Below, piece by piece: positions 5,893 through 30,894 of a stretch of 64,000 bases of DNA. Numbering within the stretch: position 1 is the first letter of the stretch; every line of letters begins with the position of its first letter. A model generated the notes under the pieces. It was given only the letters and a program-made list of their open reading frames with translations, did not search any database and had not been told where the DNA came from. The position numbers were made by a program, and so were the translations under genes. This stretch comes from Tardiphaga sp. 709 (GTDB lineage Bacteria; Pseudomonadota; Alphaproteobacteria; Rhizobiales; Xanthobacteraceae), in NCBI RefSeq assembly GCF_032401055.1, contig NZ_CP135529.1, forward strand, positions 5,268,501 to 5,332,500, read 5' to 3'.

Positions 5893-6854
5893 GATCGGCT
5901 CGCGCGTGACAGCGTTAATTTTACGGCTCTCATGGCCGATTCACCGCCTAAATAGTGCAATGCGAGGGTGAGCAAGGCTCGCAGATTGAACGGGTTGAAA
6001 TAGATCGCCGACGTCAGAAGATTCACGGCGCTCTCGCTGCGGCCGTCCAGCGCCTCCAGATTGCCGAGCTTTCGCGCACGTTCGGATAGTCGCTTGGCTG
6101 CGTAGCGAAGTAGCCGTGGATCCTGAGCGGCGATATGAAACGCTACGTAAGCGTGATGCTTCATCAACTGGTTACGTTTGGAGGTCATGGCCGATTCGTG
6201 AAGTCGCTTGTCGACCAGAGGGATCTTCACCCCTGCAACCCGACCCAGCCTCGTTGCACGGAAGAAGAACTCAGTGTCCTCGAATACTTCCAGTGCCGCG
6301 TCAAAGCCGCCAAGCTTGTCCCATAATGATCGCCGCATCAGAACCGTAGACGGGACGATAGGGGGGTCGTCCATGAAATATGCCAGGCTCTGATCGGACT
6401 GAAGGGTAAGGTCAACGAGCGGAGCGACTTCGGGCGGCTTGCGATTGTCCGACCAGAATAATGAGAATGCAGTATAGACGAGCGCGGTCTCCGGCATGGC
6501 GTCGAAGATGGAAAGCTGCCGTTCGAGTTTGTCCAATCGCCAGAGATCGTCGGCATCCAGGAAGGCGATATAGTCGCTATCGGTGACCGCGACGCCACGA
6601 TTGCGGTTGAGCGACACGCCGCGTATGCCCTGGATCTTGTCTGTGGCGACCGGCAAGATCGATATGCGGGGATCGCGCGCGGGGAGCTCCTGCAGGATCG
6701 CCTGGGTCTCTGCGTCCGACCCGTCGTCGCAGATAACGATGTGGTCGATCAGGTCAGCGCGACTTTGCTCGAGCACGCTGGCAATGGCTGCATGCAGAAA
6801 AGGTCCCTCGTCAAAGCAGGTAACGATAACGGAAACACTCATACGACTACTCAC
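5889..6854 (-). CDS. Glycosyltransferase family 2 (GT-A fold)
   Basis: A 321-residue inverting-type glycosyltransferase. SVIVTCFDEGPFL at the N-terminus, CDDGS at residues 42-46 and the metal-binding FLDADD (Asp100/Asp102) are the standard GT2 features. FEDTEFFFRA near residue 200 is the usual acidic ED block. It overlaps the next gene by 4 bases and follows the O-antigen-ligase-like gene by 58 bases. It probably assembles the exopolysaccharide repeat on the cytoplasmic face of the membrane. Confidence 0.88.
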   Translation of the reverse strand: MSSRMSVSVIVTCFDEGPFLHAAIASVLEQSRADLIDHIVICDDGSDAETQAILQELPARDPRISILPVATDKIQGIRGVSLNRNRGVAVTDSDYIAFLDADDLWRLDKLERQLSIFDAMPETALVYTAFSLFWSDNRKPPEVAPLVDLTLQSDQSLAYFMDDPPIVPSTVLMRRSLWDKLGGFDAALEVFEDTEFFFRATRLGRVAGVKIPLVDKRLHESAMTSKRNQLMKHHAYVAFHIAAQDPRLLRYAAKRLSERARKLGNLEALDGRSESAVNLLTSAIYFNPFNLRALLTLALHYLGGESAMRAVKLTLSRASRS

Positions 6855-9403: not shown

Positions 9404-9474
9404 GTCGATTTCTCCGGAAGAGAAAACGTAAAATGGCAAACGAGTCAGGGAACGCTAAATGACGTCCCCGTAGA

Positions 9475-10947: not shown

Positions 10948-11418
10948 AGTTGCTACCGACGCGTTGCATTGAAAAAGATAGAAAGTGGAAGCCCCGCATG
11001 GGGCGTCGCTTTGTATCGTTCTGCAGTCGAGGTCGCTGAGCGTAATTCTTGATAGTCAGAAATTGGTAGTTCAGAAGAAAATATCGCGGCCCTATTCAGG
11101 GTTGTGAAGGCGCTTAACGTCAAGACTAAAAGTTTAGCGGTGTTTGCTTTCAAAAGCGTAGGTTCGTCGTCATGACATGACCTGTGACGAAGAAGCTATG
11201 GATGCTTTGCGAGATTTCGCGGCAGTCGCCGCCGAAGATGTGGACGTTGCGATTGCTCTGCAGGCATCGTCTTGAGTTCCACCATTAACTGTCACGGCGG
11301 CGGGATATGAAGTATTGCGCAGTCTTTCGTGCGGCGGTTTGCTTGCTCTCGCGTCGATATTAGTTGGCATAGCGTATGCTTGTTTTTGAACGACTGCTTT
11401 GAGTCGGAGTACTCGATT
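10948..11418. other. Divergent intergenic region of the polysaccharide locus
   Basis: Separates the minus-strand operon from the plus-strand glycosyltransferase, so it should carry both promoters. A short hairpin GCCCC-GCAT-GGGGC lies at 10991-11004 in what would be the leader of the minus-strand operon. Two short minus-strand frames here (10953-11153, 11170-11433) lack any support as genes. No clear sigma-70 boxes were picked out. Confidence 0.45.
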
Positions 11419-12666
11419 ATGTGGTTGCTGCATAAGCAGGACGATCGCCAGTCCCTTGTTGTTATGCTCACGTGTCAGTTCGTGGAGATCATGGGCGGCG
11501 CGGAAAAGCAGTGCTTGAGCCTGTCCCGGGCGCTGGAAGGTCGTGGAGAGAATGTCATCGTCTTGTCAAGCCGCGTACCCGGTGTCGCTCTCGACGATGG
11601 TGCTATCGGTATCCGAGTGATCCGGTTCTGGTGTCCGTCGCCGCCGCAGCTCGCCGGTCGCCATTTGTTGTCGTCATTGCTCTGGGCGGTTCAAGCGCTG
11701 TTTTGGCTATTCTGGCATCGCCAGCACATTAAAGTCGTTCACGCGCACCAGCTCCGGATCAACGCCTATGTCGCCGCGGTCGCAAGCAAGTTCCTGAAGC
11801 TGCCATCGGTCCTGAAGTTGGGCGTTGGCGGAGAAGAGAACGATCTCGTGGTGATCGGACGGAGGAAGTATCTGTTCGGGAAGGCCGGTGTAGATTTTGT
11901 GGTTAGGCATGCGAGCCGGTTTATTGCGATCAGTAAGCAGATCGAAGACGATCTGAAGGCACATGGCGTATCTCCATTTGCAATCGCGTCGATCCCGAAC
12001 GGTGTCGATCTCACTCGTTTCGCAGCGCGCATTGAGGAGACGCAGGCAGCGCGGGCCGAAAGTATCAAGGACGCGGCAGTATTCAGCTTCGTTGGGCGGT
12101 TGTCTCCCGAGAAGAATGTGTTGTCGATGATTGCGGGTCTCCAGTCTGTACCGGCGCCGAAGAGGACAATGGTGATGTTGGCCGGGGAGGGGCCTTTACG
12201 GGAAGCGATCGAAGCAAGACTGCAAAGTACGCGAAATCCGCTAGATATAAGGCTGCTTGGTGCCATCACAGACGTTAGCGGGCTTCTTCACCGCACGCAC
12301 TTTCTTCTGCTTCTCTCAAGCTCTGAAGGCCTCTCTAACGCGCTGCTGGAGGCGCTCGCGGCTGGTGTGGTGCCAATCATTACGGATATGAGCGGTGCGC
12401 GCGACGTGATTCCGTTCGAGAATTATCCGCTGTTTTCCGTGAGCGGTAGCGAAGTCGATATCGCGGTCGCCGTTCGCAGGGCCTATGCACTCGATCCAGC
12501 GGTCTGGTTGGAGTGGTCGCGGCGGCTGTCCCAGCACGCGGAGAGAACGTTCGATCTTGAGTCGGTCGCGATGCGCTACGTTGAACTCTATCGTGCCCTG
12601 TCCGAGCCAGGCGCTTCTGTCGGACTAAGGACCACTCGCGAGACATCTCAGGTCAATCAAGCCTAG
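11419..12666 (+). CDS. Glycosyltransferase family 4
   Basis: GT-B enzyme of about 415 residues. The frame is open from 11329, but the first 30 codons are unlike the family; ATG 11419 or ATG 11464 (MLTCQFVEIMGGAEKQC) are better starts and the choice is uncertain. Signature parts: MGGAEKQCLSLSRALE, KVVHAHQLRINAYVA, IPNGVDLTRF, FSFVGRLSPEKNV, and SSEGLSNALLEALAAGVVPI with an intact E-x7-E. It begins the plus-strand half of the locus and is followed by a methyltransferase after 34 bases. Donor and acceptor unknown. Confidence 0.85.
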   Translation: MWLLHKQDDRQSLVVMLTCQFVEIMGGAEKQCLSLSRALEGRGENVIVLSSRVPGVALDDGAIGIRVIRFWCPSPPQLAGRHLLSSLLWAVQALFWLFWHRQHIKVVHAHQLRINAYVAAVASKFLKLPSVLKLGVGGEENDLVVIGRRKYLFGKAGVDFVVRHASRFIAISKQIEDDLKAHGVSPFAIASIPNGVDLTRFAARIEETQAARAESIKDAAVFSFVGRLSPEKNVLSMIAGLQSVPAPKRTMVMLAGEGPLREAIEARLQSTRNPLDIRLLGAITDVSGLLHRTHFLLLLSSSEGLSNALLEALAAGVVPIITDMSGARDVIPFENYPLFSVSGSEVDIAVAVRRAYALDPAVWLEWSRRLSQHAERTFDLESVAMRYVELYRALSEPGASVGLRTTRETSQVNQA

Positions 12667-13680: not shown

Positions 13681-15222
13681 ATGGACGTTTCGCTGATGGA
13701 CGCGCGTGGGGAAACCTCCGGCAGCAGCCTCACACGAAGGCTCGGTACCGGCGTTGGCTGGCTGATGATCGGGCGCCTCGGGTTGGCATTCTCCGGGCTT
13801 GCGTCGTCAGTGGCACTGGCACGACTGATGTCACCGCGTGAATTTGGCATGATGGCCGCGATTACGGTCGTCCTGTTTCTCGGCAATGCGCTGACCGAGG
13901 GCGGGTTTGTCTCTCCCATCATTCAAAGGACACAGGTCGATGCTGATCTCAGAAATGCGGTTTTCAGTCTGTCTGCAATATTCGGCCTCGTGCTCGGTGC
14001 TTTGGCAGCCGTTGCGTCGCCGTGGGTGGCCGGGTTTTTCAGGATAGAAGGGCTTGAATGGCCACTGTTAGCTGCGGTTGTCATCATTCCGATCAAGGCG
14101 ATGGCGGCGCCTGCCATCGGGTTGCTGATGCGGGATCATCGCTATCGGGAGGTCACGGTTGCCGCGCTGTTATCGAACATATTCGCTTACTCCATCGTAG
14201 CCATCTTGCTTGCCGCGCTGGGATTCGGGATTTGGGCTTTGGTAATCCCGAGCATTCTCGCCGCGTTGACCGAGCTGGTCCTGGTTGGCCGCGCAGCCGG
14301 CCCACCTCGAAAATTCGTTTGGCGCATCACAGATCGGAATTTCATCAGGGACTGGCGCGCCTCCGTCTCCAGCGGGCTTTTGAACTGGGGCGCGCTTTCG
14401 AGCCCGAATGTCATCGTCGGACGACTTTTCGGGGCGGATGGACTGGGGCTTTACTCACGTGCCGGCAGTCTATTCTCCATGGCAACGCAATTGTTCTCCA
14501 CGACGGTTGAGCGGGTCATGTTCTCGGGTCTGTCGGGAGTTCAGGAGGATAGCGAGCGTGTAACGTTGCTCTTTCGACGCATGCTGTCCGTGCTGCTGCC
14601 TATTTACGTCACGATTGGCGTTGGGCTTGCCATCCATGCCGAGCCGATCATTCGTATCCTGTTCGGTTCTCAATGGCTGGCCGCGATCCCCGTGACCAGT
14701 GTATTGTTCCTGGCATTCTCGGGCCGCGCCAGCTACAAAATATCGGAGTCGCTAGCGCTCAGTAAGGGGCGTTTCAACAGCGTTGCCTTTCGTCAACTGC
14801 TCTATCTTGTGCTTGTGAGCGTGGGCTTGCTGGTCGGATCTCCGCACGGCCTGGTCGGAGTCGCAAGCGGCTTCACTGCTGCAATCTGGATATTCTACGT
14901 GGTAAGCGTTCTCCAGGCCCGGCATCTTGTTGACCTCAGCTGGGCAAGCATAGCCTTCGTGCACCTGCGCGCCGTTGGGATCGCTGGCGTTGGCGCATTC
15001 GCTGATATCGCGGCGATATGGTCCTTCTCTCGGTTTGGCTGGCTTCTGTCGCATGGCGCGGGGGCAATGGCATTCGTCATCGTGCTTGCGGTGACGATGT
15101 CGCTGTTGCCGGATCGGATCATCGGCGAGGACCTGGTCTGGGCGCGGCGCAGAATATTCTCACTGATCAAGATCCGAACGGGTAGGCCCGTGGTCGGCCT
15201 ACCCGTTGTGTCGGTCGACTGA
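13681..15222 (+). CDS. Oligosaccharide flippase (Wzx/PST family)
   Basis: A 513-residue polytopic protein with about 12-14 hydrophobic segments. The opening GTGVGWLMIGRLGLAFSGLASSVALARLMSPREFGMMA is the standard first helix pair of the polysaccharide transporter family (COG2244), and SVSSGLLNWGALSSPNVIVGRLFGADGLGLYSRA is the repeat-like second half. It should flip the undecaprenyl-PP-linked repeat to the periplasm, feeding the polymerase at 6913-8247. It lies 38 bases after the methyltransferase and converges with the UDP-glucose dehydrogenase gene. Confidence 0.88.
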   Translation: MDVSLMDARGETSGSSLTRRLGTGVGWLMIGRLGLAFSGLASSVALARLMSPREFGMMAAITVVLFLGNALTEGGFVSPIIQRTQVDADLRNAVFSLSAIFGLVLGALAAVASPWVAGFFRIEGLEWPLLAAVVIIPIKAMAAPAIGLLMRDHRYREVTVAALLSNIFAYSIVAILLAALGFGIWALVIPSILAALTELVLVGRAAGPPRKFVWRITDRNFIRDWRASVSSGLLNWGALSSPNVIVGRLFGADGLGLYSRAGSLFSMATQLFSTTVERVMFSGLSGVQEDSERVTLLFRRMLSVLLPIYVTIGVGLAIHAEPIIRILFGSQWLAAIPVTSVLFLAFSGRASYKISESLALSKGRFNSVAFRQLLYLVLVSVGLLVGSPHGLVGVASGFTAAIWIFYVVSVLQARHLVDLSWASIAFVHLRAVGIAGVGAFADIAAIWSFSRFGWLLSHGAGAMAFVIVLAVTMSLLPDRIIGEDLVWARRRIFSLIKIRTGRPVVGLPVVSVD

Positions 15223-15256: not shown

Positions 15257-16597
15257 CTAGCTGACGGCGCGAAGCAAAGACTTGGGCCGCGAAGGCTTGT
15301 GACCGACGCTGTTATAAATGAAGCCGTGGCGTTCGATCTCGGTTGACCGGTAGACATTGCGCAAGTCAACCAGAATTGGCAGATGCATCAGCTCGCGAAG
15401 GCGTGGGAAGTCCAGTGCACGATAAGCGTCCCACTCCGTCACTAAAACCAGGGCGGACGCATTGTCGGCGCAAGTGTAGGCATCCGGGTAGAACGTTACT
15501 CCGCTGATGACCCCCTGGGCCTGCGTCATTCCCACGGGATCTGTAACATTGACCGTCGCGCCAGCATCGAGCAACGCTTGAACGATCGCGATGGATGGAG
15601 CATCGCGCATGTCGTCGGTATTGGGTTTGAAAGTCAGTCCCAGCAACCCGATCGTCTTGCCTTTGACGGAGCCGCCGCAGGCGGCGATCACCTTCCGGGC
15701 CATGGCGCGCTTCCGCTGGTCGTTTACGGCGGCAGCGGTCTCGACAATACGTAGCGATCCGCCGTAGTCCTGCGCCGTCTTGACGAGCGCCGCCGTATCC
15801 TTTGGAAAGCATGATCCGCCATAGCCGGGGCCGGCGTGCAGGAATTTCTGGCCGATCCGGTTGTCCAGGCCCATGCCACGCGCGACGTCCTGGACATTGG
15901 CGTCGGCCAGCTCGCAAAGGTCTGCGATCTCGTTGATGAATGTGATCTTGACCGCCAGAAAAGCGTTTGATGCGTATTTGATCAACTCGGAAGTGCGTCG
16001 CTCCGTGAAGAAGATAGGCGACTGATTGAGAAAAAGAGGGCGATATACCTCACTCATGACGTCGCGCGCACGCTCGTCCTCGGTGCCGATCACGATGCGA
16101 TCCGGCCGCTTGAAGTCGCCGATCGCAGCACCTTCACGCAGGAATTCGGGATTGGAAACGACCGAGAATTTGAGGTCCGGACGTGCCGACCGGATTATGC
16201 TCTCGACTTCATCGCCGGTTCCAACCGGTACCGTCGATTTCAGCACAACGATCGTATAGCGACTGGCGGTTCCCGCGATATCGCGCGCTGCCTGATAGAC
16301 ATAGCTCAGGTCCGCATGGCCGTCGCCGCGTCTTGATGGCGTGCCGACGGCGATGAAGATGACGGCTGCTCCTTGGATAGCGTCTTTGAGATTCGTCGTA
16401 AAGTGCAATCGATCCGCGGCAACGTTGCGGGTGACGAGATCGTCCAGTCCGGGTTCAAAGATTGGAATGGTGCCGACCCTGAGGTTCTCAATCTTCGTGG
16501 CGTCGGTATCCACGCAAGTTACCGAGTGGCCAAAATCTGCAAAACAAGCTGCCGAAACAAGTCCGACATATCCAGCGCCGACTACCGTAATATCCAT
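15257..16597 (-). CDS. ugd: UDP-glucose 6-dehydrogenase
   Basis: Oxidises UDP-glucose twice with NAD to UDP-glucuronate for an acidic polysaccharide. The 446-residue product has the NAD-binding GAGYVGLVSAACFA at residues 7-20, the STVPVGTG strand at 121-128, and the catalytic cysteine motif GPGYGGSCFPKD with Cys263. Full family length. It is transcribed alone against the flippase. Directly upstream on the same strand lies the stub of an epimerase of the type that would use its product, suggesting the polymer contains glucuronate rather than galacturonate unless another epimerase exists elsewhere. Confidence 0.95.
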   Translation of the reverse strand: MDITVVGAGYVGLVSAACFADFGHSVTCVDTDATKIENLRVGTIPIFEPGLDDLVTRNVAADRLHFTTNLKDAIQGAAVIFIAVGTPSRRGDGHADLSYVYQAARDIAGTASRYTIVVLKSTVPVGTGDEVESIIRSARPDLKFSVVSNPEFLREGAAIGDFKRPDRIVIGTEDERARDVMSEVYRPLFLNQSPIFFTERRTSELIKYASNAFLAVKITFINEIADLCELADANVQDVARGMGLDNRIGQKFLHAGPGYGGSCFPKDTAALVKTAQDYGGSLRIVETAAAVNDQRKRAMARKVIAACGGSVKGKTIGLLGLTFKPNTDDMRDAPSIAIVQALLDAGATVNVTDPVGMTQAQGVISGVTFYPDAYTCADNASALVLVTEWDAYRALDFPRLRELMHLPILVDLRNVYRSTEIERHGFIYNSVGHKPSRPKSLLRAVS

Positions 16598-18780: not shown

Positions 18781-18920
18781 ACGCACCTCTCAAGCTCGAG
18801 ATGAACTACTCATGCAATAGTGAGGCCAGCTCTGGCATGTCGATTGCTTGACACCGGATGTATTGCGTCGTGGGCTTCATGCCCTGGGTCGGCGACCGAT
18901 TTCGACGGAGCAAAGGACCT

Positions 18921-20054
18921 ATGACCTATTCCGCAACTCATCCGACGCCGGAAGTCATTGATGAGCAGAAGTCGCAGCAGGAGCCGCGTGCTGGAAGGCT
19001 GGAATCGGCGTCGACTGATGCGTTCAAAGGTATCTGCATCTTCCTTATCATCTTCGGACATAACAAAAGCCTGGAATATGCGAGCCCGGAGTTCCGGGCT
19101 TTTCTGTATTTGTTTCACGTCGCGATGTTCTTGTACTTGCCGTTCCTGAGGCCGTGGCAGGCGTGGGGGCGGGCAAAACCACTCGACCTGATCATCCGCT
19201 ACGGCTGGCCATGTGTGGTGTTCACACTCGTCTACTCAGTTATCTTTGTAAAATTCTCCGGTCGCTCATTGACCGAAGTACCCATGCTGGTCGCCGAAGC
19301 CGTGCTTGCCATGAGCGCGCGCGGCTTCGATCACGCGACGGGCCTTCAGCTGCTCTGGTTCTTGCCAGCGCTGATCGGTATCCGTTTCGCGATGATGCTC
19401 GTGGCACCGATCGCAGGCGCGCAATTATGGCCTGTTCTGGCCGTCGCGGCTTTTGCACACAGTCTGGTAGGTCTGTTGCCGGAGAGTCTGAAATACGTCA
19501 CGCCATTCGGGTGGCCGATTGCGGCGTTGCTGCTGTTTCCGGGAATGGTAATTGCGCTCCTTGATCTTGGGCGACGCCGAATACCAGTGTGGATGCTTAT
19601 CGGCCTTGGCGCGATTGCATTGACGCTCATGCTCGCGACGGGGCTGATCAATCGTGGTCATCCGCTCAATGTCGGAATGATCTTTGTGCCCTCAATCGCA
19701 ACGCCGTTGAAATTGATTGCACTCGACCTTATCCAGATATGGGCCTTTGTTACCCTCATGGCCGTCAGCCGGTTATTGCCGGTGCAAAGGTTGTTCAGCG
19801 GGCTTGGCAGGATGTCCTTCGAGCTCTTTGTGCTTCACCAGCCGATCTATATCGGGATCCGCGCGATCTCGCCGGCGGTGCTGGTCACCAGTTGGGGACC
19901 TTGGGTGACAGGCGCTGTGACACTCGCTTTGACGATTGCAATCGCTGTGGGTGTTGCTGTCGCCATTCGCAGCGTGCCGCCAGTGCACAGGCTCCTGTTT
20001 CCGGCCGGTGTTGGATCCTTCGGTCGCTTGTGGAGTCCACACCTGCAGCAGTGA
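18921..20054 (+). CDS. Acyltransferase family 3 membrane protein
   Basis: About 377 residues with some ten hydrophobic segments. The first, STDAFKGICIFLIIFGHNK, carries the family's catalytic-type His in an F-G-H context, and LGRMSFELFVLHQPIYI near the C-terminus is the typical late helix. Start moved to ATG 18921, which has AAAGGA and GGAG upstream; the longest frame adds 21 unlikely residues. Family members O-acetylate or O-acylate polysaccharide residues in the membrane. First gene of a plus-strand run leading to the arabinose-lipid genes. Confidence 0.8.
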   Translation: MTYSATHPTPEVIDEQKSQQEPRAGRLESASTDAFKGICIFLIIFGHNKSLEYASPEFRAFLYLFHVAMFLYLPFLRPWQAWGRAKPLDLIIRYGWPCVVFTLVYSVIFVKFSGRSLTEVPMLVAEAVLAMSARGFDHATGLQLLWFLPALIGIRFAMMLVAPIAGAQLWPVLAVAAFAHSLVGLLPESLKYVTPFGWPIAALLLFPGMVIALLDLGRRRIPVWMLIGLGAIALTLMLATGLINRGHPLNVGMIFVPSIATPLKLIALDLIQIWAFVTLMAVSRLLPVQRLFSGLGRMSFELFVLHQPIYIGIRAISPAVLVTSWGPWVTGAVTLALTIAIAVGVAVAIRSVPPVHRLLFPAGVGSFGRLWSPHLQQ

Positions 20055-20120: not shown

Positions 20121-21451
20121 ATGCAGGCCGAGACGAGTTCTTCGAATGACGCAAGCGCCGTCAAAGAGATGGCTCGCGCCGCAGCTCTTTATATCAGGCC
20201 AGGAGGCTCATTCGTCCTGCTTGGCATTGCCTTTGTCCTGACGCTTGCGATGCTTGCGCATAACGGCATTTTCGGCGTTGTCGAGACGTTCTCGGACGAG
20301 CATGACCATTTCAAGCGGTCAATGATGTTCGCCAGCATTGTCCGCGGAAATGCAAATCTCGAGACCATCGGCACGTTCTATGCGGGGGAATCTGGCCGCC
20401 GCTCTATCCGATGCTGATGGGCAGCATCCAGGCACTAACGAACTGCGGTGTGGGGTTTCTTCGGGGAATTAATGTATTGCTGACCTATGGTGGCTTTGGG
20501 TTTCTGATCGCCGCGATAGCGCAGCCATGGGGCCGCTATATCGGTATCGCCGTTGTCGCCCTGTTCGTTGTCGGAACACATTATTACTTTCAAATTCGTC
20601 CTGAAAGCCTGGTACTCCTGTTGCTTGGCGCAGCGATATTTCTGATCGTGAAGTATCGCCTGTTCTCCGTTGGCACGCAGGGACAGCCCAGCCGATATGT
20701 GCTTTGCGGGGCATTGTTCGCGATGGCTTGTCTGACACACGCTTTCGTTGCGGTGCTGGCCATTTATCTTGTGATACTCGCTCTGCTCAGGATCCGGTAT
20801 CGGTTCCATTTTGTGGTGGCATTTGCCCTGATCGCCGGGCCCTACGTTGCTGCGCAGGCGATGATTCATAACGGCGTGGTGCTGTTCGCGACCACGGCCG
20901 AGGAAAATCTTGCACGGAACAATAATGTGTTCCTTCGGAATCATGAGCGACCGCAGGCGGATGAACTGCTCTTCGCGGAAATGGAGCGGCGGTATAAAGC
21001 GGGTGACAAGGTGACATACCCGCGCCCCATGTTGTTGCCCCAGGGAAGATACGAGCAGTGGCTCCATGACGAAAACAAGCGCCGCATATTCAAGGAAATG
21101 GCCATGGAGGAGGTCCGCGCCGATCCGGCGGGCGTAGCGATCCGGGCGATGCAGCGCGCCACCGGCCTGATTGGCGGAGAGGGCTGTGTCCCGGGCCAGC
21201 GTTATGGCTGTAATGTCAGCCCAAAGCTCGACCTGATGGCATTCTACGGCCTCGAGCTAATGGCACTCATCGGTTTGATTTATGCGGCACGAAGTGAACG
21301 AATTCGAGTTTCATCATTCTCATTTGCAATCGCATGCGTCGCGTTGCTCGCTCCCATGATTGTCACCCAGGCGGTGGAGCGCCAGTTCGTTATTGTGCTG
21401 GTATTGGCATCGTTCGGTGGATTGGCTCGCCTCAAATCGCCGCGAACATAG
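20121..21451 (+). pseudogene. GT-C-like polytopic glycosyltransferase, interrupted by a frameshift
   Basis: Two frames join into one membrane protein of about 443 residues. The first (20121-20417) gives helix 1 (SFVLLGIAFVLTLAMLA) and a first loop with DEHDHFKRSM, an acidic motif as in the first external loop of GT-C transferases. The second enters as IWPPLYPMLMGSIQALTN, and continues through about nine hydrophobic segments to 21451. Loss of one G from the run at 20384-20388 explains the shift: restoring it gives TFYAGGIWPPLYP. GT-C enzymes use polyprenyl-phosphate sugars outside the membrane, which fits the arabinose-lipid genes downstream. Either real inactivation or a base-calling error in the G-run. 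Confidence 0.7.
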
Positions 21452-21704: not shown

Positions 21705-22895
21705 TTGCGTTTCGCAGCTTTAGACGGCTGGCGTGGTATAGCAGCCATCGGGGTTGCAGTTTTCCATCTCAGTGTTTTAGGTCATTTTTTTGATATTCCC
21801 TTTGTCCGAAAGGCGGACGTATTCGTCGATTTCTTCTTTGTCCTGAGCGGTTTTGTTCTTACTCACGCTTATGGCAATCGCCTCTCGAACAAAGACGAAT
21901 TTTTTCGTTTCGCTATTCGTCGCTTCGGCCGGCTGTGGCCGTTGCATATCGTCACGACGCTTGTTCTGGTCGCAAGCGAGGTCCTGAAGTACGCGACGAT
22001 GAAGTTTGCTGGCCTCGGTGCGGGCGCGCCTGCATTTGCCGGGCGGACGAGCGTGGAGGCGCTCATCTATAATGTATTCTTGCTGCATGGTCTTGGCTTC
22101 TTCCCGGACTTCACCTGGAACCTGCCGAGTTGGAGCATCAGTACTGAATTCTACGTCTATGCAGCATTCGCAAGTATTTGCGTGGCGTTCGGACGGCCAT
22201 CGGTGGTGATTGCGGGGGTAGCGGCTGCGCTGGCTGCTGCCGTCTTCTACATCTTGATCGGTCAGCGTGCCGGGCCGCCGCCGCTCTATACTGCTGTTCC
22301 GCGATGTATGTGCGAATTCTTCGTCGGCGTTTTCGTTTACCGGCTCTTTCGCATGACGCCGCCGTTGGGGATACGTGTAGCGTCGTGGTTCGAGATCCCA
22401 ATCGTTATTGTGATGGTCGTTCTGCTTTCGGTGTCATCCCGCAGCCAGCTGGCGCTCGTGAGCCCAATCCTTTTTGGAGCGGTTGTCTTTGTCTTCGCGG
22501 GCGGGGGTGGGATCGTGTCGCGCGGCCTCATGTGGCGGCCGCTTCAGAGTATGGGGGAAATTTCTTACTCGATCTATTTGGTTCATTTTGTTGTCCTGAC
22601 CATTTTCAATGCGCTGACGCGGGCGCTGGAGCAAAAATTGCATATGCCGCTGCGCGCGCAGTTCGTTCATGACGGAGCGCCGTTCGATGTTCTCACGGTG
22701 GGCGGCCCCTGGTTTCTGGATCTCGTAGCGGTTGGCTATCTCGTCATCGTGATCTTCGTGTCGCGTCATACGTACAATCTGATTGAAGTCCCGGCTCGGG
22801 ATTTTTTCAACAATGTGGCCGCAAACATGTTTCCGGTCGCACCTGCGGGGAGTGCAGAGAAGCCGATTCCGTGTGGCCTGCGGGATGCGCTCTGA
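21705..22895 (+). CDS. Acyltransferase family 3 (OafA-like) membrane protein
   Basis: A 396-residue polytopic protein starting with TTG, supported by AGGAGGA five bases upstream. The N-terminus FAALDGWRGIAAIGVAVFHL is the classic acyltransferase-3 opening with conserved Arg and His; FVDFFFVLSGFVLTHAY follows, and PSWSISTEFYVY and SYSIYLVHFVVL are the later landmarks. Predicted to O-acetylate a sugar of the polysaccharide. It sits between the broken GT-C gene and the HAD-UbiA gene. Confidence 0.88.
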   Translation: MRFAALDGWRGIAAIGVAVFHLSVLGHFFDIPFVRKADVFVDFFFVLSGFVLTHAYGNRLSNKDEFFRFAIRRFGRLWPLHIVTTLVLVASEVLKYATMKFAGLGAGAPAFAGRTSVEALIYNVFLLHGLGFFPDFTWNLPSWSISTEFYVYAAFASICVAFGRPSVVIAGVAAALAAAVFYILIGQRAGPPPLYTAVPRCMCEFFVGVFVYRLFRMTPPLGIRVASWFEIPIVIVMVVLLSVSSRSQLALVSPILFGAVVFVFAGGGGIVSRGLMWRPLQSMGEISYSIYLVHFVVLTIFNALTRALEQKLHMPLRAQFVHDGAPFDVLTVGGPWFLDLVAVGYLVIVIFVSRHTYNLIEVPARDFFNNVAANMFPVAPAGSAEKPIPCGLRDAL

Positions 22896-23009
22896 AGTCT
22901 AAGGCGGCGGCAGGTGGGGCCTCGATGGGCTAGCGCAAGGCGAGACGAGATGCAGACGAATTGATGTGAGACGACCTGCAATACTGTGAGGCGAGCTGGA
23001 GTAAGGCGT

Positions 23010-24449
23010 ATGGGCTTAGCAGAAGCGTCGTTATCCGGTATGTCGGTTCCGCTTATTGTTGACGTCGACGGAACACTCCTGAAGACAGATTTGCTTGTTG
23101 AGACATTTCTCGCGTTGCTTTCGCGCAAGCCATTGAGAGCGCTGCTGGCACTGGCGGAGTTGCGGAAGGGCAAGGCTGCGTTCAAGGCGCGGCTGGCGAG
23201 CGAAGCAGAGATCGATATCTCGCTGATGCCCGTGCGGGAAGAGGTCATCACCTTCCTTCACGGTGAGAAGGCTCGAGGGCGGAAGATCTATCTCGCGTCT
23301 GCGGCAGACGCGCAGCTCGTATCCGCATTGTCCGATCACCTCGGCCTGTTCGACGGTGTGCTTGGATCGGACGGCACGATCAACCTGTCTGGTGCGGCCA
23401 AGGCGGATGCCTTGTGCGAGCGATTTGGCAAGGCTCAGTTCGACTATGTTGGCGACAGCCGGGCGGACCTCAAGGTCTGGAGCACCTGCAACGTTGCGAT
23501 CGTCGCGGGTGGTCGTGGCGCGTGGCGCTCCGGGATTTCAGGCTGCCAGCCGGGCGTAGTGGAGATTGTCGGGTCCCAGCCGGGCCTTCGCGATTACATC
23601 TCGGCGCTGCGCCCGCATCAATGGCTGAAGAACGCGCTCGTGTTTGTTCCCGCTATCGCTGGACACGTCCTGATGACGACCTGGTTCGGGTCGATTCTCG
23701 CCTTCATCAGTTTCTGCCTGTGCGCGTCCGCAGTCTATATTCTTAACGACCTGCTCGATCTGCGAGCCGACCGGCAGCACCCGCGCAAGCGCAATCGTCC
23801 GTTCGCATCAGGGCGCGTTCCCATCATCCATGGGGCGGTGATGGCGCCGAGCCTGCTGCTTGCGGCGTTCTCCCTCACATTGTTTCTGCCGAAGGTCTTT
23901 GCGATTGTCCTGGCCGGCTACCTGGTTTTGACAACGCTTTATTCCTTTTGGCTCAAGCGCAAAGTGTTGGTGGACGTCATCGCGCTTGCGTGCCTGTATG
24001 CCGCGAGGGTGATCGGCGGATCAGTGGCGACCGGCGTGCTGATCTCGCAGTGGTTGGAAGCGTTCTCCATCTTCCTGTTCCTCAGCCTCGCCCTCGTGAA
24101 GCGTTCCGGTGAATTAGTCGATCGCGTTAAAAGTGGACGTGGTGATCCGGGCGGACGAGGGTATAGGCTCGACGATTTGCCGGTGATCGAGTCCATGGCC
24201 GCTGCCAGCGGCTATTTGTCGGCGTTGGTGATGGCGCTCTACCTGAACAGCGAGGCTGTCGTAAACCTCTATAACAAGCCGCATCGACTTCTGCTGATCT
24301 GCGTGGCGTTGCTGTTCTGGACGAGCCGGATGTTGCTCAAGGCTCATCGCGGACAGATGGATGATGATCCCATCGTCTTCGCTGCGCGGGACCGGGTCAG
24401 TCTGGGCGTCGGAGCAATATGCCTCGGCGTCGTGTATATCAGCCTATGA
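23010..24449 (+). CDS. HAD phosphatase - UbiA prenyltransferase fusion (polyprenyl-P-phosphoribose synthase/phosphatase)
   Basis: About 479 residues. Residues 1-190 are a HAD domain (DVDGT with Asp18/Asp20, and YVGDSRADLKVW near 146). Residues about 195-479 are a UbiA-type prenyltransferase with eight or nine helices and the polyprenyl-substrate motif NDLLDLRAD at 246-254 followed by HPRKRNRP. In mycobacteria the UbiA protein Rv3806c joins PRPP to decaprenyl phosphate and a separate phosphatase removes the 5-phosphate; this fusion could do both. ATG 23010 is chosen because GGAG precedes it by 8 bases; a GTG at 22986 and an ATG at 23040 are alternatives. The stop overlaps gtrA by 4 bases. Confidence 0.85.
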   Translation: MGLAEASLSGMSVPLIVDVDGTLLKTDLLVETFLALLSRKPLRALLALAELRKGKAAFKARLASEAEIDISLMPVREEVITFLHGEKARGRKIYLASAADAQLVSALSDHLGLFDGVLGSDGTINLSGAAKADALCERFGKAQFDYVGDSRADLKVWSTCNVAIVAGGRGAWRSGISGCQPGVVEIVGSQPGLRDYISALRPHQWLKNALVFVPAIAGHVLMTTWFGSILAFISFCLCASAVYILNDLLDLRADRQHPRKRNRPFASGRVPIIHGAVMAPSLLLAAFSLTLFLPKVFAIVLAGYLVLTTLYSFWLKRKVLVDVIALACLYAARVIGGSVATGVLISQWLEAFSIFLFLSLALVKRSGELVDRVKSGRGDPGGRGYRLDDLPVIESMAAASGYLSALVMALYLNSEAVVNLYNKPHRLLLICVALLFWTSRMLLKAHRGQMDDDPIVFAARDRVSLGVGAICLGVVYISL

Positions 24450-24874
24450 AGTCATCAACTCATAGCTTGATCGCGACTTATGTCGTCTTTTGCATGATAG
24501 CAATGGCGACCAACCTCGGGACGCAGAACGCATTAAACTGGCTGTTGGTAAAGCAGGGAGTCGCTGACCAGCTTCGGCTGCTTGTCGTACTCGCCGGCGG
24601 TACACTGGCGGGCCTTTTGATTAAGTACGTGCTGGACAAGCGCTATATCTTCGAGGACCGCAGCCGCGACCTTAACTCTCATGCGCGCAAGTTCTCGATG
24701 TATACGGCGATGGGACTAGTGACGACGGCCATCTTCTGGATATTTGAAGCTGTGGCGTTCTTCATCGTGCCGACGACAGCGGGACTGATGATCGGCGGCG
24801 CGATCGGGCTCACGATCGGCTATGTCATCAAGTACCACCTCGATCGGCGATTTGTCTTTGAGGCGGCGGTATGA
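24446..24874 (+). CDS. GtrA-family membrane protein (candidate lipid-arabinose translocation partner)
   Basis: About 142 residues, four hydrophobic segments, with the GtrA/DPMS C-terminal repeats GTLAGLLIKYVLDKRYIF and IGLTIGYVIKYHLDRRFVF, each ending in the characteristic R-x-x-F. The longest frame begins at 24419, but ATG 24446 overlaps the preceding stop (ATGA) and starts just before helix 1. In Mycobacterium the GtrA protein Rv3789 sits directly before dprE1 and dprE2 and has been linked to decaprenyl-phospho-arabinose translocation or to recruiting the arabinosyltransferase AftA. The same order here argues for a like role. Confidence 0.85.
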   Translation: MKSSTHSLIATYVVFCMIAMATNLGTQNALNWLLVKQGVADQLRLLVVLAGGTLAGLLIKYVLDKRYIFEDRSRDLNSHARKFSMYTAMGLVTTAIFWIFEAVAFFIVPTTAGLMIGGAIGLTIGYVIKYHLDRRFVFEAAV

Positions 24875-26193
24875 TGCTTTCGGGATGGGGACGATATCCT
24901 GTGCTGCCATGCACAGCCCGGAAGGCGCGCGGCGAAGCTGATGTTATAAAGTTGATGGCTTCAACAACAAGCCTGATCGCTCGCGGAGCCGGCCGCGCCT
25001 ATGGCGACGCGGCATTGAATTCGCAGATGACGCTGCTGATGGAGGGCAGCAACCGCATTCTTTTTTTCGACGACGCGACGGGGCGCCTGACATGCGAGGC
25101 GGGAGTGCTTCTCGCCGACATCCTGAACGTCTTCGTGCCGCAGGGCTGGTTTCCGCCCGTTACGCCGGGCACGCAATACGTGACTGTGGGAGGCATGATC
25201 GCCTCGGACGTCCATGGAAAGAATCATCATGGTGCGGGCAGTTTTGGCGAATATGTTGAGTCCCTTGAACTCGCGGTCAGCGATGGACGAACGTTGCGCT
25301 GTGCGGATGATGAGAATGCCGACCTGTTCAATGCCACGATCGGCGGCATGGGACTGACCGGCGTCATCCTGCGCGCGACCTTCCGCATGCTGCGCATCGA
25401 GACGGACCTGATCGTTCAGGAGACGATCCGCGCAAACAACCTGAGAGAAGCTTTCGACGTCCTGGAGAACTCGCTCTCGGCAACGTATTCGGTCGCATGG
25501 ATCGATAGCTTGGCAAGGGATGACAAGCTTGGCCGCTCGGTTGTGTTCACGGGAGAGCATCTGGCGGCGGCGGAATTGCCGAAGGATCGGACATCTGTGC
25601 CATTTTCCGCCAAGCTTCCGAACGGGCGAAAAGTGCCATTCGACCTTCCCGGAATGACTCTGAACAGATTTAGCGTATCAGCCTTCAATGCACTCTATGT
25701 CGGATCGCGCAAATTCGGGCGCTCGTTGATCAATTTCCAGCCTTACTTCTACCCTCTGGATAGTATCGCGGAATGGAACCGGATCTACGGGCGTGCGGGC
25801 TTCGTTCAGTATCAGGTGGCATTTCCGCGCGAGAGCAGTTTCGAAGGGATAAGCGCGATCCTTCGGACTGCCTCTGACTACGGACTGGGGTCATTTCTCT
25901 CCGTATTGAAGCTCTGTGGTAGACAGCGGAATAGTCCACTTTCGTTTCCACGGGAGGGCTACACGCTGACTCTCGATTATCCCATTAGAGCAAGAACTTT
26001 CAGCATGCTCCTGGAACTTGATCGCATCGTCGATGATCACGGGGGGCGGATCTATCTGGCGAAGGATGCCAGGATGGGAGCCCGCATGCTGGAGCGTGGA
26101 TATCCGCGGATCGCTGAATTTGCGGCTGTACGGCAACGGTTCGATCCAGATCGCAAAATGCGTTCCTTACTCTCTGACCGACTGGGCATCTAA
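24871..26193 (+). CDS. dprE1: DprE1-like FAD-dependent polyprenyl-phosphoryl-ribose oxidase
   Basis: Oxidises the 2-hydroxyl of polyprenyl-phospho-ribose to the keto intermediate, first half of the ribose-to-arabinose epimerisation. The 440-residue product has the VAO/FAD fold: RGAGRAYGDAALN at 38-50, TPGTQYVTVGGMIASDVHG near 98-116 with KNHHGAGSFG after it, and the C-terminal YLAKDARM with Lys398. Alignment by eye with the mycobacterial enzyme gives a constant offset of 20, placing Lys398 on Lys418 and Thr367 on Cys387, the benzothiazinone target cysteine. Start overlaps the GtrA stop by 4 bases, stop overlaps the next start by 1. Confidence 0.9.
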   Translation: MMLSGWGRYPVLPCTARKARGEADVIKLMASTTSLIARGAGRAYGDAALNSQMTLLMEGSNRILFFDDATGRLTCEAGVLLADILNVFVPQGWFPPVTPGTQYVTVGGMIASDVHGKNHHGAGSFGEYVESLELAVSDGRTLRCADDENADLFNATIGGMGLTGVILRATFRMLRIETDLIVQETIRANNLREAFDVLENSLSATYSVAWIDSLARDDKLGRSVVFTGEHLAAAELPKDRTSVPFSAKLPNGRKVPFDLPGMTLNRFSVSAFNALYVGSRKFGRSLINFQPYFYPLDSIAEWNRIYGRAGFVQYQVAFPRESSFEGISAILRTASDYGLGSFLSVLKLCGRQRNSPLSFPREGYTLTLDYPIRARTFSMLLELDRIVDDHGGRIYLAKDARMGARMLERGYPRIAEFAAVRQRFDPDRKMRSLLSDRLGI

Positions 26194-26933
26194 TGATGAT
26201 CGCATCGCCTGTTTTGATCGTGGGTGCCGCGTCCGATATCGGACGCGCGATTGCGGCGGAGTATGCCAAGGCGGGCGCTTCGCTCATTCTCGCCGCGCGA
26301 GATGTCAGCAGGCTAGAGCCCGACGTGAAGGATCTGTTCTATCGATATAAGGCAGACGCGCAGCTCATGGAGCTTGATATTCTTGACGAGGGGCAGCGCG
26401 AAGCACTGCTTGGAAAATTGACGGAGGTTCCCGGTACCGTCATTTCCGTTGCCGGCGTTCTTGGCGACGAAGCGGCTGCATGGAGCAGTGCCGCTGCTGC
26501 TAACCACATCATGCAAGTAAATTATGTGGCTCCGTCCCTATTGCTCGGGGCCTTCGCCAATCTCATGGCGGACCGGCCAGGCGCGTGCATCATTGGAATT
26601 AGCTCGGTCGCGGGAGACCGGGGACGCAAGAAGAATTATACATATGGTTCCGCCAAGGCAGGTTTCACTGCGTTTTTGTCCGGTCTGCGCAATCGCTTCG
26701 GATCGAGCGGACTTCACGTGCTCACGGTCAAGCCTGGATTTGTCGCCACCCGAATGACTGAGGGAATGGCGCTTCCGCCGCTTCTGACGGCGAGTCCGCA
26801 GCAGGTTGCCAGTTCCATTATCAGTGCCCACCGCAAGAAGAAGGACGTACTCTACGTACTGGGTGTCTGGCGAGGCATCATGTTCATTATCCGGGCGATC
26901 CCGGAACGTATGTTTAAATCCATGGATATCTAA
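26193..26933 (+). CDS. dprE2: DprE2-like SDR, polyprenyl-phosphoryl 2-keto-pentose reductase
   Basis: Reduces the DprE1 product with NAD(P)H, completing conversion of the ribosyl to the arabinosyl lipid. The 246-residue SDR has the cofactor loop GAASDIG near residue 11, SSVAGDRGRKKNYTYGSAKAG containing the Tyr-x-x-x-Lys catalytic pair, and PGFVATRMTEGM. Length and the D-R-G-R-x-x-N-Y-x-Y-G-S-A-K block fit DprE2. TAATG junction with dprE1 indicates tight coupling. Last gene of the HAD-UbiA/GtrA/DprE1/DprE2 set. Confidence 0.88.
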   Translation: MMIASPVLIVGAASDIGRAIAAEYAKAGASLILAARDVSRLEPDVKDLFYRYKADAQLMELDILDEGQREALLGKLTEVPGTVISVAGVLGDEAAAWSSAAAANHIMQVNYVAPSLLLGAFANLMADRPGACIIGISSVAGDRGRKKNYTYGSAKAGFTAFLSGLRNRFGSSGLHVLTVKPGFVATRMTEGMALPPLLTASPQQVASSIISAHRKKKDVLYVLGVWRGIMFIIRAIPERMFKSMDI

Positions 26934-27096: not shown

Positions 27097-29310
27097 GTGC
27101 TCGAATTGCATCGAAATTCGTTTCGTGTTGACCAAGAGATCAATCAGGCGCCGCCTTTTGGCGATCGAAGTCTGAGCCTGTCCGGCTTCCTGGCAATTTT
27201 CCGCCGAAACCGTTGGTTGGTCATAGGCTGCCTCGCTCTCGCCTGGGGCATTGGTGCGACCGTCTATATGACGTCTCCCAAGCTATACACGTCTAAGGCG
27301 CGCATGATGCTGGACGCGACGAGGTCAAAGTTCCTGTCGTCGCAGCAAGCCAGCGCGTCCGACGGGGTTCTGGATGCCATGACCGTCGAGAGCCAGGTCG
27401 AGGTTGTGCGGTCGGAAGGCGTTGCGATTGCTGTCGCCAAGAAATTGGATCTTGCCAACGATCCTGACTTTACTTCGCCAGGCGGCTCTCCAGTGGCGAC
27501 TGTTATCCGGTTTGTTGTTGGCCTCTTCACGGAATCGTCCGATCCGAGCGAAAGCCGGATTTCGCGTGCTGCGGTCGATAATCTGCTCGAGAATCTGACA
27601 GTCACTCGGGTTGGATTGACCTACGTCATCGAGATCAGCTTTCGCGCCCGCGATCCGAAGAAGGCTGCCGTCATCGCTAATGCGTTTTCGGATGCATATA
27701 TCGCAGGTCAGTTAGAAGCAAAGTATAGCGAGGCAAAGAGAGCTGCCGACTGGCTGCGCGAACGAATTGCTGAACTTCGGCAGGAGTCTTTCGTTGCTGA
27801 AAGCGCCGTGCAGGATTTTAAATCGCAGAACAATATCGTCGATACCAAGCAGGGCCTCATTAGTGAACAGCAGTTAGGCGAACTGAACACGCAACTGGTG
27901 CTCGTCCAAGGGCAGGTTGCGGAGGCCAAAGCACGACTGGATCGTGTGAACGTGGTCATGACGGAAGGAGTCACTAACGCCGCGGTCGCAGATACGTTGA
28001 AAAGTGAAGTTATCAACCGGATGCGCCAACAGTATCTCGATATGCAGCAGCAAGAAGCACAACTGTCGAGAAAGTACGGGCGCGAACACGGAGCCGCCGT
28101 CAACCTGCGAAACGTGATGATTGGCCTCGAGCGGTCGATGGCCGACGAAGTAAGCCGCGTTGCCGAGGCGAACAAAAGCGACTACCAAATTGCCCTGCTA
28201 CGTCAGCAAGCGATCACTGCAAACGTAAATACTCTGATCAAAGGCGAAGCGCTGACGCGCAAGGCGCAGGTGACCCTACGCCAACTTGAAAGCACAGCGC
28301 TGAGCTATCGCGCGATTTTTGACTCGTTTCTTCAAAAGTATGTGCAGTCGAATCAGCAAACTTCGGTTCCTTCCACGGAAGCGCGCGTTATCACGATTGC
28401 AACGCCGCCAGAAAAGAAGAGCAATCCAAAGGGCGGCATCATTCTTGGTATCGCAAGCGCGCTTGGCTTGATGGCCGGCGCGGCCGCTGCGTTTGGACGC
28501 GAGGCACTCGATCGGACGTTCCGCTCGACTGAGAGTGTCGAGTCGACGCTACGCGTTTCTTGTTTCGGAGCGTTGCCGTTCGTAGCGGGGAGGAAATTGC
28601 GCAGGTCGGGACCGAAGATACTAGGTTTGGGAGAGCCTAAGACCGATGCTCCGGCCCGCGACCTCGACCCAGGCGAGTCAATTGCGCGCTACGTCATTAA
28701 TGATCCATTCTCGCGCTTTGCTGAAACTCTTCGTACGATCAGGGTCGCTGCTGACCACGCCGGATTGATCGGGAAGTCGAAGGTCATTGGCGTTGTTTCA
28801 GCGATGCCTGAAGAGGGGGCAACCACAATTGCTGCTAATCTCGCTCATCTGGTGGCGCATGCCGGCAATCATGTGTTGCTAATAGACGGCGGTCTGAGGG
28901 ATGCCGGCCTGACGCGTGCGCTGGCTCCAACGGCGGCAACCGGATTACTCGATGCGATCGGGCGTCCTGAAGATACCGATGAATTTTTCTGGCAAGATGG
29001 TGAAACGGGATTGAAATTCCTGCCAGCGATAACGCAGGAAAGACCGATCCACACGGCGGAGAAACTCTCGTCGGTCGGGATGGATTTGTTGCTGAAGAAG
29101 GCCAAGGAGAACTTCGATTACATTATCATCGATTTGCCGCCGCTAACCAAAGCGGTGGATGCCAGGGCCATCAGCCCCCTGATCGAAAAATTCGTCTTCG
29201 TTGTGGAGTGGAGAAAGACCTCTTACGACGAAGTCATTGGTGCGCTGTCTACGGCGCCAATGGTCTATGAGAAAATGCTAGGCGTTGTGCTTAATAAAGC
29301 GGCATCCTGA
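27097..29310 (+). CDS. Wzz/GumC/ExoP-like polysaccharide co-polymerase with degenerate kinase domain
   Basis: A 737-residue inner-membrane protein that should set chain length and link polymerase to export. It starts at GTG 27097 with AAGGGAG 6 bases upstream. Order: N-terminal Wzz domain with helix 1 at about 38-58, long coiled-coil periplasmic part (about 200-420), second helix at about 446-466 preceded by PPEKKSNPKGG, and a C-terminal BY-kinase-like P-loop domain (about 560-737). The P-loop reads PEEGATT: Ala575 replaces the nucleotide-binding Lys. Walker A' reads LLIDGGLR with Gly599 for the second Asp, while Walker B (YIIIDLPP) is kept. The protein stops at LGVVLNKAAS with no Tyr-rich tail. 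Probably a structural co-polymerase without autokinase activity. Confidence 0.88.
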   Translation: MLELHRNSFRVDQEINQAPPFGDRSLSLSGFLAIFRRNRWLVIGCLALAWGIGATVYMTSPKLYTSKARMMLDATRSKFLSSQQASASDGVLDAMTVESQVEVVRSEGVAIAVAKKLDLANDPDFTSPGGSPVATVIRFVVGLFTESSDPSESRISRAAVDNLLENLTVTRVGLTYVIEISFRARDPKKAAVIANAFSDAYIAGQLEAKYSEAKRAADWLRERIAELRQESFVAESAVQDFKSQNNIVDTKQGLISEQQLGELNTQLVLVQGQVAEAKARLDRVNVVMTEGVTNAAVADTLKSEVINRMRQQYLDMQQQEAQLSRKYGREHGAAVNLRNVMIGLERSMADEVSRVAEANKSDYQIALLRQQAITANVNTLIKGEALTRKAQVTLRQLESTALSYRAIFDSFLQKYVQSNQQTSVPSTEARVITIATPPEKKSNPKGGIILGIASALGLMAGAAAAFGREALDRTFRSTESVESTLRVSCFGALPFVAGRKLRRSGPKILGLGEPKTDAPARDLDPGESIARYVINDPFSRFAETLRTIRVAADHAGLIGKSKVIGVVSAMPEEGATTIAANLAHLVAHAGNHVLLIDGGLRDAGLTRALAPTAATGLLDAIGRPEDTDEFFWQDGETGLKFLPAITQERPIHTAEKLSSVGMDLLLKKAKENFDYIIIDLPPLTKAVDARAISPLIEKFVFVVEWRKTSYDEVIGALSTAPMVYEKMLGVVLNKAAS

Positions 29311-29491: not shown

Positions 29492-29636
29492 CGATGTTGC
29501 CTGAAATCCTCCATTCCCAATAAAAAAGCACTGGTAGTTCAAAGGGGTTGGACGAGTCTGACCTGCCTTGGTACGGCATCTGCAGGCTATTGTTCAGAAA
29601 TGCGTTTGCGTTCTTGCCAATAAGGCTGCCCCTTTA

Positions 29637-30894
29637 ATGAATACGTCTACGCCAATCAATTCTAAGGGCGGTTTACGGATCACGCTTTCCTCGAATTGCG
29701 CGCGGCCTCGGCCTGTGTTGGCAGGGCTGGCATTTGCTTCCCTGCTCTTGGGAGGATGTGCGGGCGGGGTGCTTCCATCCAGTGGTCCTCCGTCGGCAAG
29801 GGTCTTCAAGGAGTCGGTCGACACCGTTGGTAACCCCAATTCGACCGTCGGCTATGTTGTAGTTAACCTCCGCCCCGAGGTGGTTACGCATTTGAATTCC
29901 GAAGATGGCGGGCGGCTCTTTAGCAACATGAGGGGACGCGCGAAGACGAGTGTTGCGCTTGGAATCGGCGATGTCGTCAGCATCACAATTTATGAGGCCC
30001 AGCGCGGCGGTTTATTCACGTCGACCGAAGGCAATGCCGCGCCTGGCAACGCTGTGGAGCTGCCACGTCAGCAGGTCGACCTGGCCGGCAACATCACCGT
30101 GCCTTATGCTGGCGCCATCAAGGCTGCGGGCCGGTCGCCGCAGGATGTGCAGCTTGAGATCAAGAGTAAGCTAAGCGGCCGTGCGATTGATCCTCAGGTC
30201 CTTGTTTCGGTCGCGGATCGAGATCTCCAACAGCATCAGCGTTCTTGGCGAAGTGAATACGCCTGCTCGTATTCCGATCGAACCTGGTGGCATCCAGCTG
30301 CTGCCAGCGCTTGCCCGGGCGGGCGGCACAAAGGCACCGGCGTTTGAAAGCATCATCTCGATTCAAAGAGATGGGAAGATCGACAGCGCGTTGCTCGTTG
30401 CTGTGAACGAGCGCCCGGATAACAATATTCAGCTTCGTCCCGGTGACGTCGTGACTGTTACCCGTCGTCCGCGCTACTTCCTGGCTTTCGGTGCGACGGG
30501 TCAGACAACAACTCTTGGGCCCCTGGATCGTCGGTTCCCGTTCGACTCGTACCGTATGTCTCTCGGAGATGCTCTCGCCAAGGCCGGCGGTCTTCAAGAT
30601 GACCGTGCGCAAGCGGCAGCCGTATTTCTCTATCGATTTGAGTCGCGCCAAGCGCTTGAGCGCATGGGCGTAGACGTCAGCCTGCATCCCGGCCCGCTTG
30701 TCCCGACAGTGTATCGGGCAGACCTTGAAGATCCGTCCGGTTACTTTCTTATCTCAGATTTCATCATGCGGGATCGGGATATGATCTACGTCTCGAACGC
30801 GCCCTCTGTCGATTTCCTGAAGTTTATCACTCTTATCCGATCGGTCCCGCAGACCGTATCCGACTACAGGGTGGCTGCGGAAGCGCGCTTCTGA
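29637..30894 (+). pseudogene. Wza/GumB/ExoF-like polysaccharide export lipoprotein, frameshifted
   Basis: Two frames form one outer-membrane polysaccharide export protein of about 419 residues. The N-terminus (ATG 29637; a longer start at 29568 is possible) has a signal with lipobox LLGGC. The Poly_export domain follows: LGIGDVVSITIYEAQRGGLF, then LPRQQVDLAGNITVPYAGAIKAAGRSPQDV. The first frame reads DPQVLVSVADR and then goes wrong; the second picks up at ISNSISVLGEVNTPARIPI and runs through SLBB-like repeats (LRPGDVVTVTRRPRYFLAFGA; SLGDALAKAGGLQDD) to 30894. Removing one base at 30221-30222 restores VADRISNSISV. Real disruption would block polymer export, so base-calling error must be considered. 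Confidence 0.82.

Follow-up and report, generated by a model that had tools for sequence, protein, structure and literature searches.

A predicted lipid-linked D-arabinofuranose donor module and a candidate GT-C transferase in an exopolysaccharide locus of Tardiphaga sp. 709

Introduction

Gene sets for pentofuranose transfer are described from mycobacteria, rhizobia, Citrobacter youngae and Pseudomonas paraeruginosa. Here, we report a four-gene module of this kind in a 64,000-nucleotide stretch of Tardiphaga sp. 709 (contig NZ_CP135529.1, positions 5,268,501 to 5,332,500, forward strand; assembly GCF_032401055.1), hereafter called the window and numbered from its first base. The module (window 22986-26933) lies in an exopolysaccharide (EPS) locus, and sequence comparisons support its reading as a donor set for polyprenyl-phosphate-D-arabinofuranose (D-Araf), related to the rhizobial noe set. 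We consider it likely that the module makes this donor and that a GT-C-type glycosyltransferase adds D-Araf to the EPS of the same locus. The module is real and well formed and its mechanism is largely known; the transferase and the polymer are the more tentative elements.

The mycobacterial decaprenyl-phosphoryl-arabinose pathway (Rv3806c, Rv3807c, Rv3789-3791) has a UbiA-type transferase and a DprE1/DprE2-like pair in common with the window, which differs in that the phosphatase is fused as a HAD domain; unlike in that pathway, no Emb/Aft-type Pfam family was found among the window proteins scanned. The noe operon (noeCNHOP on plasmids of Rhizobium sp. IRBG74 and Sinorhizobium alkalisoli; noeCHOP in Azorhizobium caulinodans) has the gene order of the window, UbiA-GtrA-DprE1-DprE2, and sits with nod genes, whereas the window module sits with EPS genes. 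In Rhizobium sp. IRBG74, deletion of noeP abolishes arabinosylation, deletion of noeN merely lowers it, and NoeN was suggested to be a phosphatase (PMC5080398).

The three-component systems of Citrobacter youngae O1/O2, as published, share with the window a HAD-UbiA donor synthase plus phosphatase, an epimerizing step, a flippase and a GT-C enzyme, the last a candidate only in the window. By that description they are set apart by a MATE/EmrE-like flippase (GtrA in the window) and by epimerization through ORF13 (a DprE1/DprE2-like pair in the window), and their GT-C enzyme is of family GT136, whereas the candidate here is unclassified. The same source shows biochemically that the Citrobacter HAD-UbiA fusion ORF15 makes polyprenyl-phosphate-ribofuranose from phosphoribosyl pyrophosphate and dephosphorylates it; it also notes that DprE1/E2 homologues accompany Araf-containing glycans (Kelly et al. 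2024, PMC11127046). In P. paraeruginosa (PSPA7_6245-6251, TfpW), a likeness drawn from the literature, Gram-negative D-Araf donor genes feed a GT-C enzyme, as proposed for the window; the acceptor is pilin, and D-Araf is reported on type IV pilins of this species (PMC12369383).

DprE1-like genes (E value ≤ 1e-60) occur in 90 of the 391 sampled family genomes. Devosia submarina presumably belongs to the same order as the organism studied here. It makes a pure alpha-D-arabinofuranan (PMC8707391), so D-Araf on an alphaproteobacterial surface is not new, and the "uncommon surface chemistry" of an earlier reading of this stretch from its letters (the original prediction) was an overstatement. Among the titles and abstract openings listed from open-licence PMC literature (10 of 19 hits in one of the searches), D-Araf in Bradyrhizobium EPS was not reported.

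The donor module

The module consists of the following genes.

22986 (GTG) or 23010 (ATG)..24449, plus strand: HAD-UbiA fusion, predicted polyprenyl-phosphate phosphoribosyltransferase with its own 5'-phosphatase domain (NF006088; Pfam UbiA and HAD; PDB 8j8j)
24446..24874, plus strand: GtrA family protein, predicted flippase for the lipid-linked pentose (PF04138, NF037976; about four transmembrane [TM] segments)
24871..26193, plus strand: DprE1-like flavin adenine dinucleotide (FAD) oxidase (NF053785; PDB 4aut; tree)
26193..26933, plus strand: DprE2-like short-chain reductase (NF005489, NF053786; PDB 21gq_C)

Coordinates, hidden Markov model scores and motifs bear out the four overlapping genes of the original prediction, with the order and junctions (ATGA, ATGATG and TAATG) that it gave. 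All four profile assignments lie well beyond chance. The fusion scored 610 bits on NF006088 (cut-off, 351), with Pfam UbiA at 77.8 (cut-off, 34.2) and HAD at 27.2 (cut-off, 27), and the GtrA protein belongs to its family by both NF037976 (142 bits; cut-off, 50) and PF04138 (36.4 bits; cut-off, 26.1). The DprE1-like protein reached 411 bits on NF053785 (E value, 7e-123), the next family being TIGR01678 (sugar lactone oxidase) at 60 bits, and the DprE2-like protein passed NF005489 (313 bits; cut-off, 267). The best PDB sequence matches were decaprenyl-phosphate phosphoribosyltransferase for the fusion (8j8j; E value, 1e-25; UbiA part alone, residues 203-378), DprE1 for the oxidase (4aut; 2e-84) and DprE2 for the reductase (21gq_C; 4e-28). 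Motifs are intact in the HAD part (DVDGT at 26, GDSRAD at 156) and the UbiA active site (NDLLDLRAD at 254, KRSGEL at 372) of the fusion, in the DprE1-like protein (HGKNHH, AKDAR) and in the DprE2-like protein (GAASDIG, SSVAG, YGSAK).

We infer the enzymatic steps, the lipid, the acceptor and the linkage. The four genes would supply an outward-facing donor, polyprenyl- (probably undecaprenyl-) phosphate-D-arabinofuranose: the DprE1-like oxidase and DprE2-like reductase would invert C2 to give the arabino form, and GtrA would flip the lipid-linked pentose to the periplasm. The predicted donor is very probably lipid-linked D-Araf.

The relation to the noe set that had been proposed held up. Identity between the DprE1-like protein and NoeH is 50% for one plasmid and 49% for the other, and in a DprE1 tree built by a quick method the window protein groups with NoeH in a 54-row clade (support, 92). 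Most rows of this clade are alphaproteobacterial, a few being gammaproteobacterial, actinobacterial or cyanobacterial, and the mycobacterial-type chain branches off outside it with a long branch. Seven rows, six of them relatives and one an outgroup, form a separate group; the second outgroup sits within the 54-row clade, both outgroup rows being unreliably placed on branches of length 10; a third outgroup open reading frame (ORF), shorter than 330 amino acids (aa), was dropped, and loci L112 and L118 were left out because gene picking gave them no DprE1-labelled ORF. The tree thus ties the window protein to NoeH, and since its outgroups are unreliable, separation from other oxidases rests on the profile scores (411 versus 60 bits), by which the protein is no unrelated oxidoreductase of the kind that the original prediction had named as refuting it.

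Profile scores are alike for the S. alkalisoli plasmid and the window: NoeH, 403 versus 411 bits (NF053785), and NoeO, 330 versus 313 bits (NF005489). On NF053786, NoeO reached 198 bits and the window protein 164, both under the cut-off of 250, and both pass NF005489. Two symbiosis plasmids (L128 and L129) carry UbiA-GtrA-DprE1-DprE2-hypothetical sets a few genes from nodABC; tblastn with NoeP, NodA, NodB and NodC of L128 returned no hit in the window at an E value of 0.01. NoeC of both plasmids is without a HAD domain, whereas the window UbiA is HAD-fused.

The gene between noeC and noeH (L128:7582-8004 and L129:7582-8004) is annotated as GtrA, and the copy on L128 scored 156 bits on NF037976 (cut-off, 50), against 142 for the window GtrA. 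If this gene, by its position, is noeN, its family would suit a flippase better, and the published phosphatase role looks doubtful.

A contig profile scan gave at least 574 confirmed relatives, of which 80 were kept as named loci; counts on these come from a simple ORF caller, some contigs are truncated, and "near" means within five genes. UbiA is near DprE1 in 63 of the 80, DprE2 in 65, both in 54 and all four genes in 30; fusion length (≥ 440 aa) is reached by 40 of 64 UbiA proteins, and 46 loci have a multi-TM neighbour within five genes. The "mycobacterial gene order" of the original prediction stands as far as the order GtrA-DprE1-DprE2 goes, which we take to be that of the Rv genes; it is not distinctive, being also that of noeCNHO, and the exact order UbiA, GtrA, DprE1, DprE2 recurs in 19/80 loci. 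In a sampled group of the same family (g49), five loci have a DNA identity of 67-93% with named Bradyrhizobium-type loci, so Bradyrhizobium-like genomes fall within the family, and DprE1-like genes (E value ≤ 1e-40) were found in 64 of 72,556 plasmid records.

The candidate transferase

A donor calls for a transferase, and a candidate lies near the module.

20121..21451, plus strand: candidate GT-C arabinosyltransferase gene, with a one-base frameshift near 20388 in this assembly (TM pattern, first-loop motif)

This gene lies two genes upstream of the module. ORF 20411-21451 is its rear part, and the front part, from 20121, is in another frame; the original prediction named no transferase, the gene being hidden by the frameshift. 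Open copies of 443 aa are found in sister genomes G001 and G005, and a 488-aa ORF in G003, and the frameshift is probably an assembly error. The protein has about 10 hydrophobic/TM segments, a long first loop with an acidic DEHDH motif and a PPLYP stretch, features that we take to fit a GT-C protein. The sole family hint came from the G003 copy, which matched Glyco_transf_22 below threshold (E value, 0.008).

In the periplasm, D-Araf would be added to the polysaccharide of the Wzx/Wzy/Wzc/Wza locus described below by a GT-C-type enzyme with several TM segments, most likely the 20121-21451 protein. That this protein is the transferase for this donor is probable, and that the acceptor is this EPS is equally so. 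More tentatively, and short of an even chance in our estimate, it may found a new D-arabinofuranosyltransferase family within an extensive, scarcely catalogued collection of GT-C partners, outwardly unrelated to one another, that would accompany the donor module and each determine a different acceptor.

Of 10 multi-TM neighbours of such modules that were hand-picked for a Pfam search (NoeP and nine of 68 candidates), nine, NoeP included, were without a Pfam family at an E value of 0.01; the remaining one was GT87. Two of these nine belong to the family of a Rhizobium laguerreae neighbour (locus L070; 13-row alignment), which was modelled with a predicted local distance difference test score (pLDDT) of 76 and a predicted template modelling score (pTM) of 0.81. 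The best PDB folds for this model were ArnT, DPY19, AftA and AftB (E values, 6e-5 to 1e-3), with modest template modelling scores of 0.39-0.49. The L070 family differs from that of the window's candidate; the model suggests that Pfam-less neighbours of such modules can be GT-C transferases, which would support the candidate indirectly.

Separately, a mobilizable plasmid of Rhizobium leguminosarum (L195:10015-15759) carries a UbiA-GtrA-DprE1-DprE2-hypothetical set away from EPS genes and about 6 kb from a conjugation gene; the hypothetical protein directly after the module is 98% identical to the L070 neighbour.

The surrounding locus

The genes around the module and the candidate are the following.

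4786..5892, minus strand: glycosyltransferase, GT4-like (PF00534)
5889..6854, minus strand: glycosyltransferase, GT2-like (PF00535)
6913..8247, minus strand: Wzy/ligase-like polymerase (PF04932, 43.8 bits; about 11 TM segments)
8237..9439, minus strand: glycosyltransferase, GT4-like (PF00534)
9475..10947, minus strand: initiating sugar-phosphate transferase (PF02397, 222 bits)
11329..12666, plus strand: glycosyltransferase, GT4-like (PF13439 and PF00534)
13681..15222, plus strand: Wzx-like flippase (PF13440, 191 bits)
15257..16597, minus strand: UDP-sugar dehydrogenase (PF03721, PF00984, PF03720)
18858..20054, plus strand: Acyltransferase_3 membrane protein (PF01757, 47 bits)
21705..22895, plus strand: Acyltransferase_3 membrane protein (PF01757, 82.5 bits)
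27097..29310, plus strand: Wzc/GumC-like chain-length regulator with a kinase-type domain (TIGR01005, 370 bits, cut-off 412; Wzz; AAA_31)
29568..30894, plus strand: Wza-like export gene with a frameshift near 30222 in this assembly (Poly_export and SLBB in two frames; open 441-aa copy in G001)

With an initiating transferase and Wzx, Wzy, Wzc-like and Wza-like genes, the last frameshifted in the assembly (a break that the original prediction did not mention), this is an EPS locus of the Wzx/Wzy type, and the family assignments agree with the neighbourhood of Wzx/Wzy, GumC-like and Wza-like genes that had been claimed for the module. Methyltransferase and GMC-type oxidoreductase genes also lie left of the module among the EPS genes, and the two acyltransferases may decorate the polymer further. 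The G+C content is 54-59% over 4-32 kb versus 60-64% over 34-54 kb, and the genes scanned from 31.7 to 49.1 kb differ in kind, the majority serving catabolism, regulation and transport. No tRNA, sought at the locus border, was found in the window, and promoter and terminator scans gave no more than the shuffled level.

Two further observations concern other parts of the genome. Two DUF6282 proteins (window 32813-33775 and 40359-41300) lie in one cluster with two IclR regulators, a beta-keto acid cleavage enzyme and a branched-chain-type ATP-binding cassette transporter. A stretch of about 85 bases near C1:4030300 of the own genome (L161:10297-10385) matches dozens of places in G005 on both strands and is an interspersed repeat family, perhaps of the repetitive extragenic palindromic (REP) kind.

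Alternative explanations

Several results weigh against D-Araf transfer to this EPS by the candidate. The DprE1-like protein misses the curated NF053785 cut-off of 500 bits with its 411, as NoeH also does, hence the name "DprE1-like", and the DprE2-like protein misses that of NF053786. No curated family covers the candidate in the family library scans, and a profile of three relatives' copies drew two PDB matches only, branching enzymes with an E value of 0.06 that were taken as chance. A model of its downstream fragment (window 20387-21448, made without an alignment) was unusable (pLDDT, 50.8; pTM, 0.32), and when it was used to search for similar folds, no match reached an E value of ≤ 0.001 and no GT-C was among the matches listed. 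No sequence link was detected between the candidate and NoeP or other module neighbours, in a low-power test in which the other groups were unlinked too: of 70 neighbour proteins (68 and two NoeP) compared singly with the candidate alignment, the best reached 8.7% probability, lost with its group profile, and the seven neighbour groups (one a subset of another) gave no mutual signal save the subset. Of 15 genomes, its own and those of 14 named loci with the module, the candidate was found in its own alone, and its profile matched three of 385 sampled class genomes, its own and two others (E values, about 3e-4; 55 and 90 positions) that were not counted as relatives. The literature searched held no sugar data for this organism, and both the candidate gene and wza are frameshifted in this assembly.

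The leading alternative, unlikely in our view, is that the donor is made as proposed and the arabinose goes to another acceptor (lipopolysaccharide, a glycoprotein such as pilin, or a free glycolipid), the module merely lying beside EPS genes. Similar modules serve pili (PMC12369383) and Nod factors (PMC5080398) in other bacteria, and the R. leguminosarum plasmid module lies apart from EPS genes near a conjugation gene. Distribution within the genus speaks for the EPS instead. The candidate gene occurs in 4/391 family genomes sampled, exactly those with a DprE1 of at least 81% identity to that of the window; within the genus, Wzy and the module are found in the same four of 18 genomes (Wzy incomplete in G003), and Wzc relatives (E value ≤ 1e-60), present in 17/18, reach 94-100% identity only in these four. 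All four have acyltransferase, candidate GT-C, acyltransferase, module, Wzc and Wza consecutively on one strand. A point against giving this much weight is that the four genomes are close relatives, so the co-occurrence may be one event and is counted as one shared locus, not as independent ones.

A second alternative, which we hold improbable, is that the sequenced strain no longer makes the product, the frameshifts being real and the locus decaying. Two genes of one locus are broken that have open copies in sister genomes, and of 21 window genes tried, 19 of them comparable, only the candidate and wza show a net frame change versus both G001 and G005. Against this, net frame changes versus G005 are about as frequent elsewhere, in 6/41 and 9/36 ORFs of two other regions of this genome versus 3/17 in the window (4/18 in the window versus G001), where the reference ORFs (≥ 150 aa in the sister genome) were picked mechanically and some may be spurious; the two breaks thus seem typical of this assembly as a whole. 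For this reason locus decay was rejected as the principal explanation, and the donor genes are all intact.

That the module makes another lipid-linked pentofuranose, with ribofuranose kept or another epimer formed, is very improbable: related Citrobacter systems carry ribofuranose or xylofuranose (PMC11127046), and both redox proteins fall under the curated DprE1/DprE2 cut-offs, but NoeH and NoeO, of an operon genetically tied to Nod-factor arabinosylation, score alike, and the motifs are kept.

Implications

If D-Araf is added to the EPS of this locus as proposed, the donor pathway of mycobacterial cell walls and rhizobial Nod factors would also serve an ordinary exopolysaccharide. The bottleneck in predicting such polymers would then be the transferase, which tends to escape the standard family library, as the neighbours above illustrate; the modelling of the L070-type neighbour family as GT-C offers a concrete route to further transferases. 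Should the candidate indeed found a new family of GT-C partners, the module would act as a general-purpose donor cassette, with an exchangeable transferase deciding the product.

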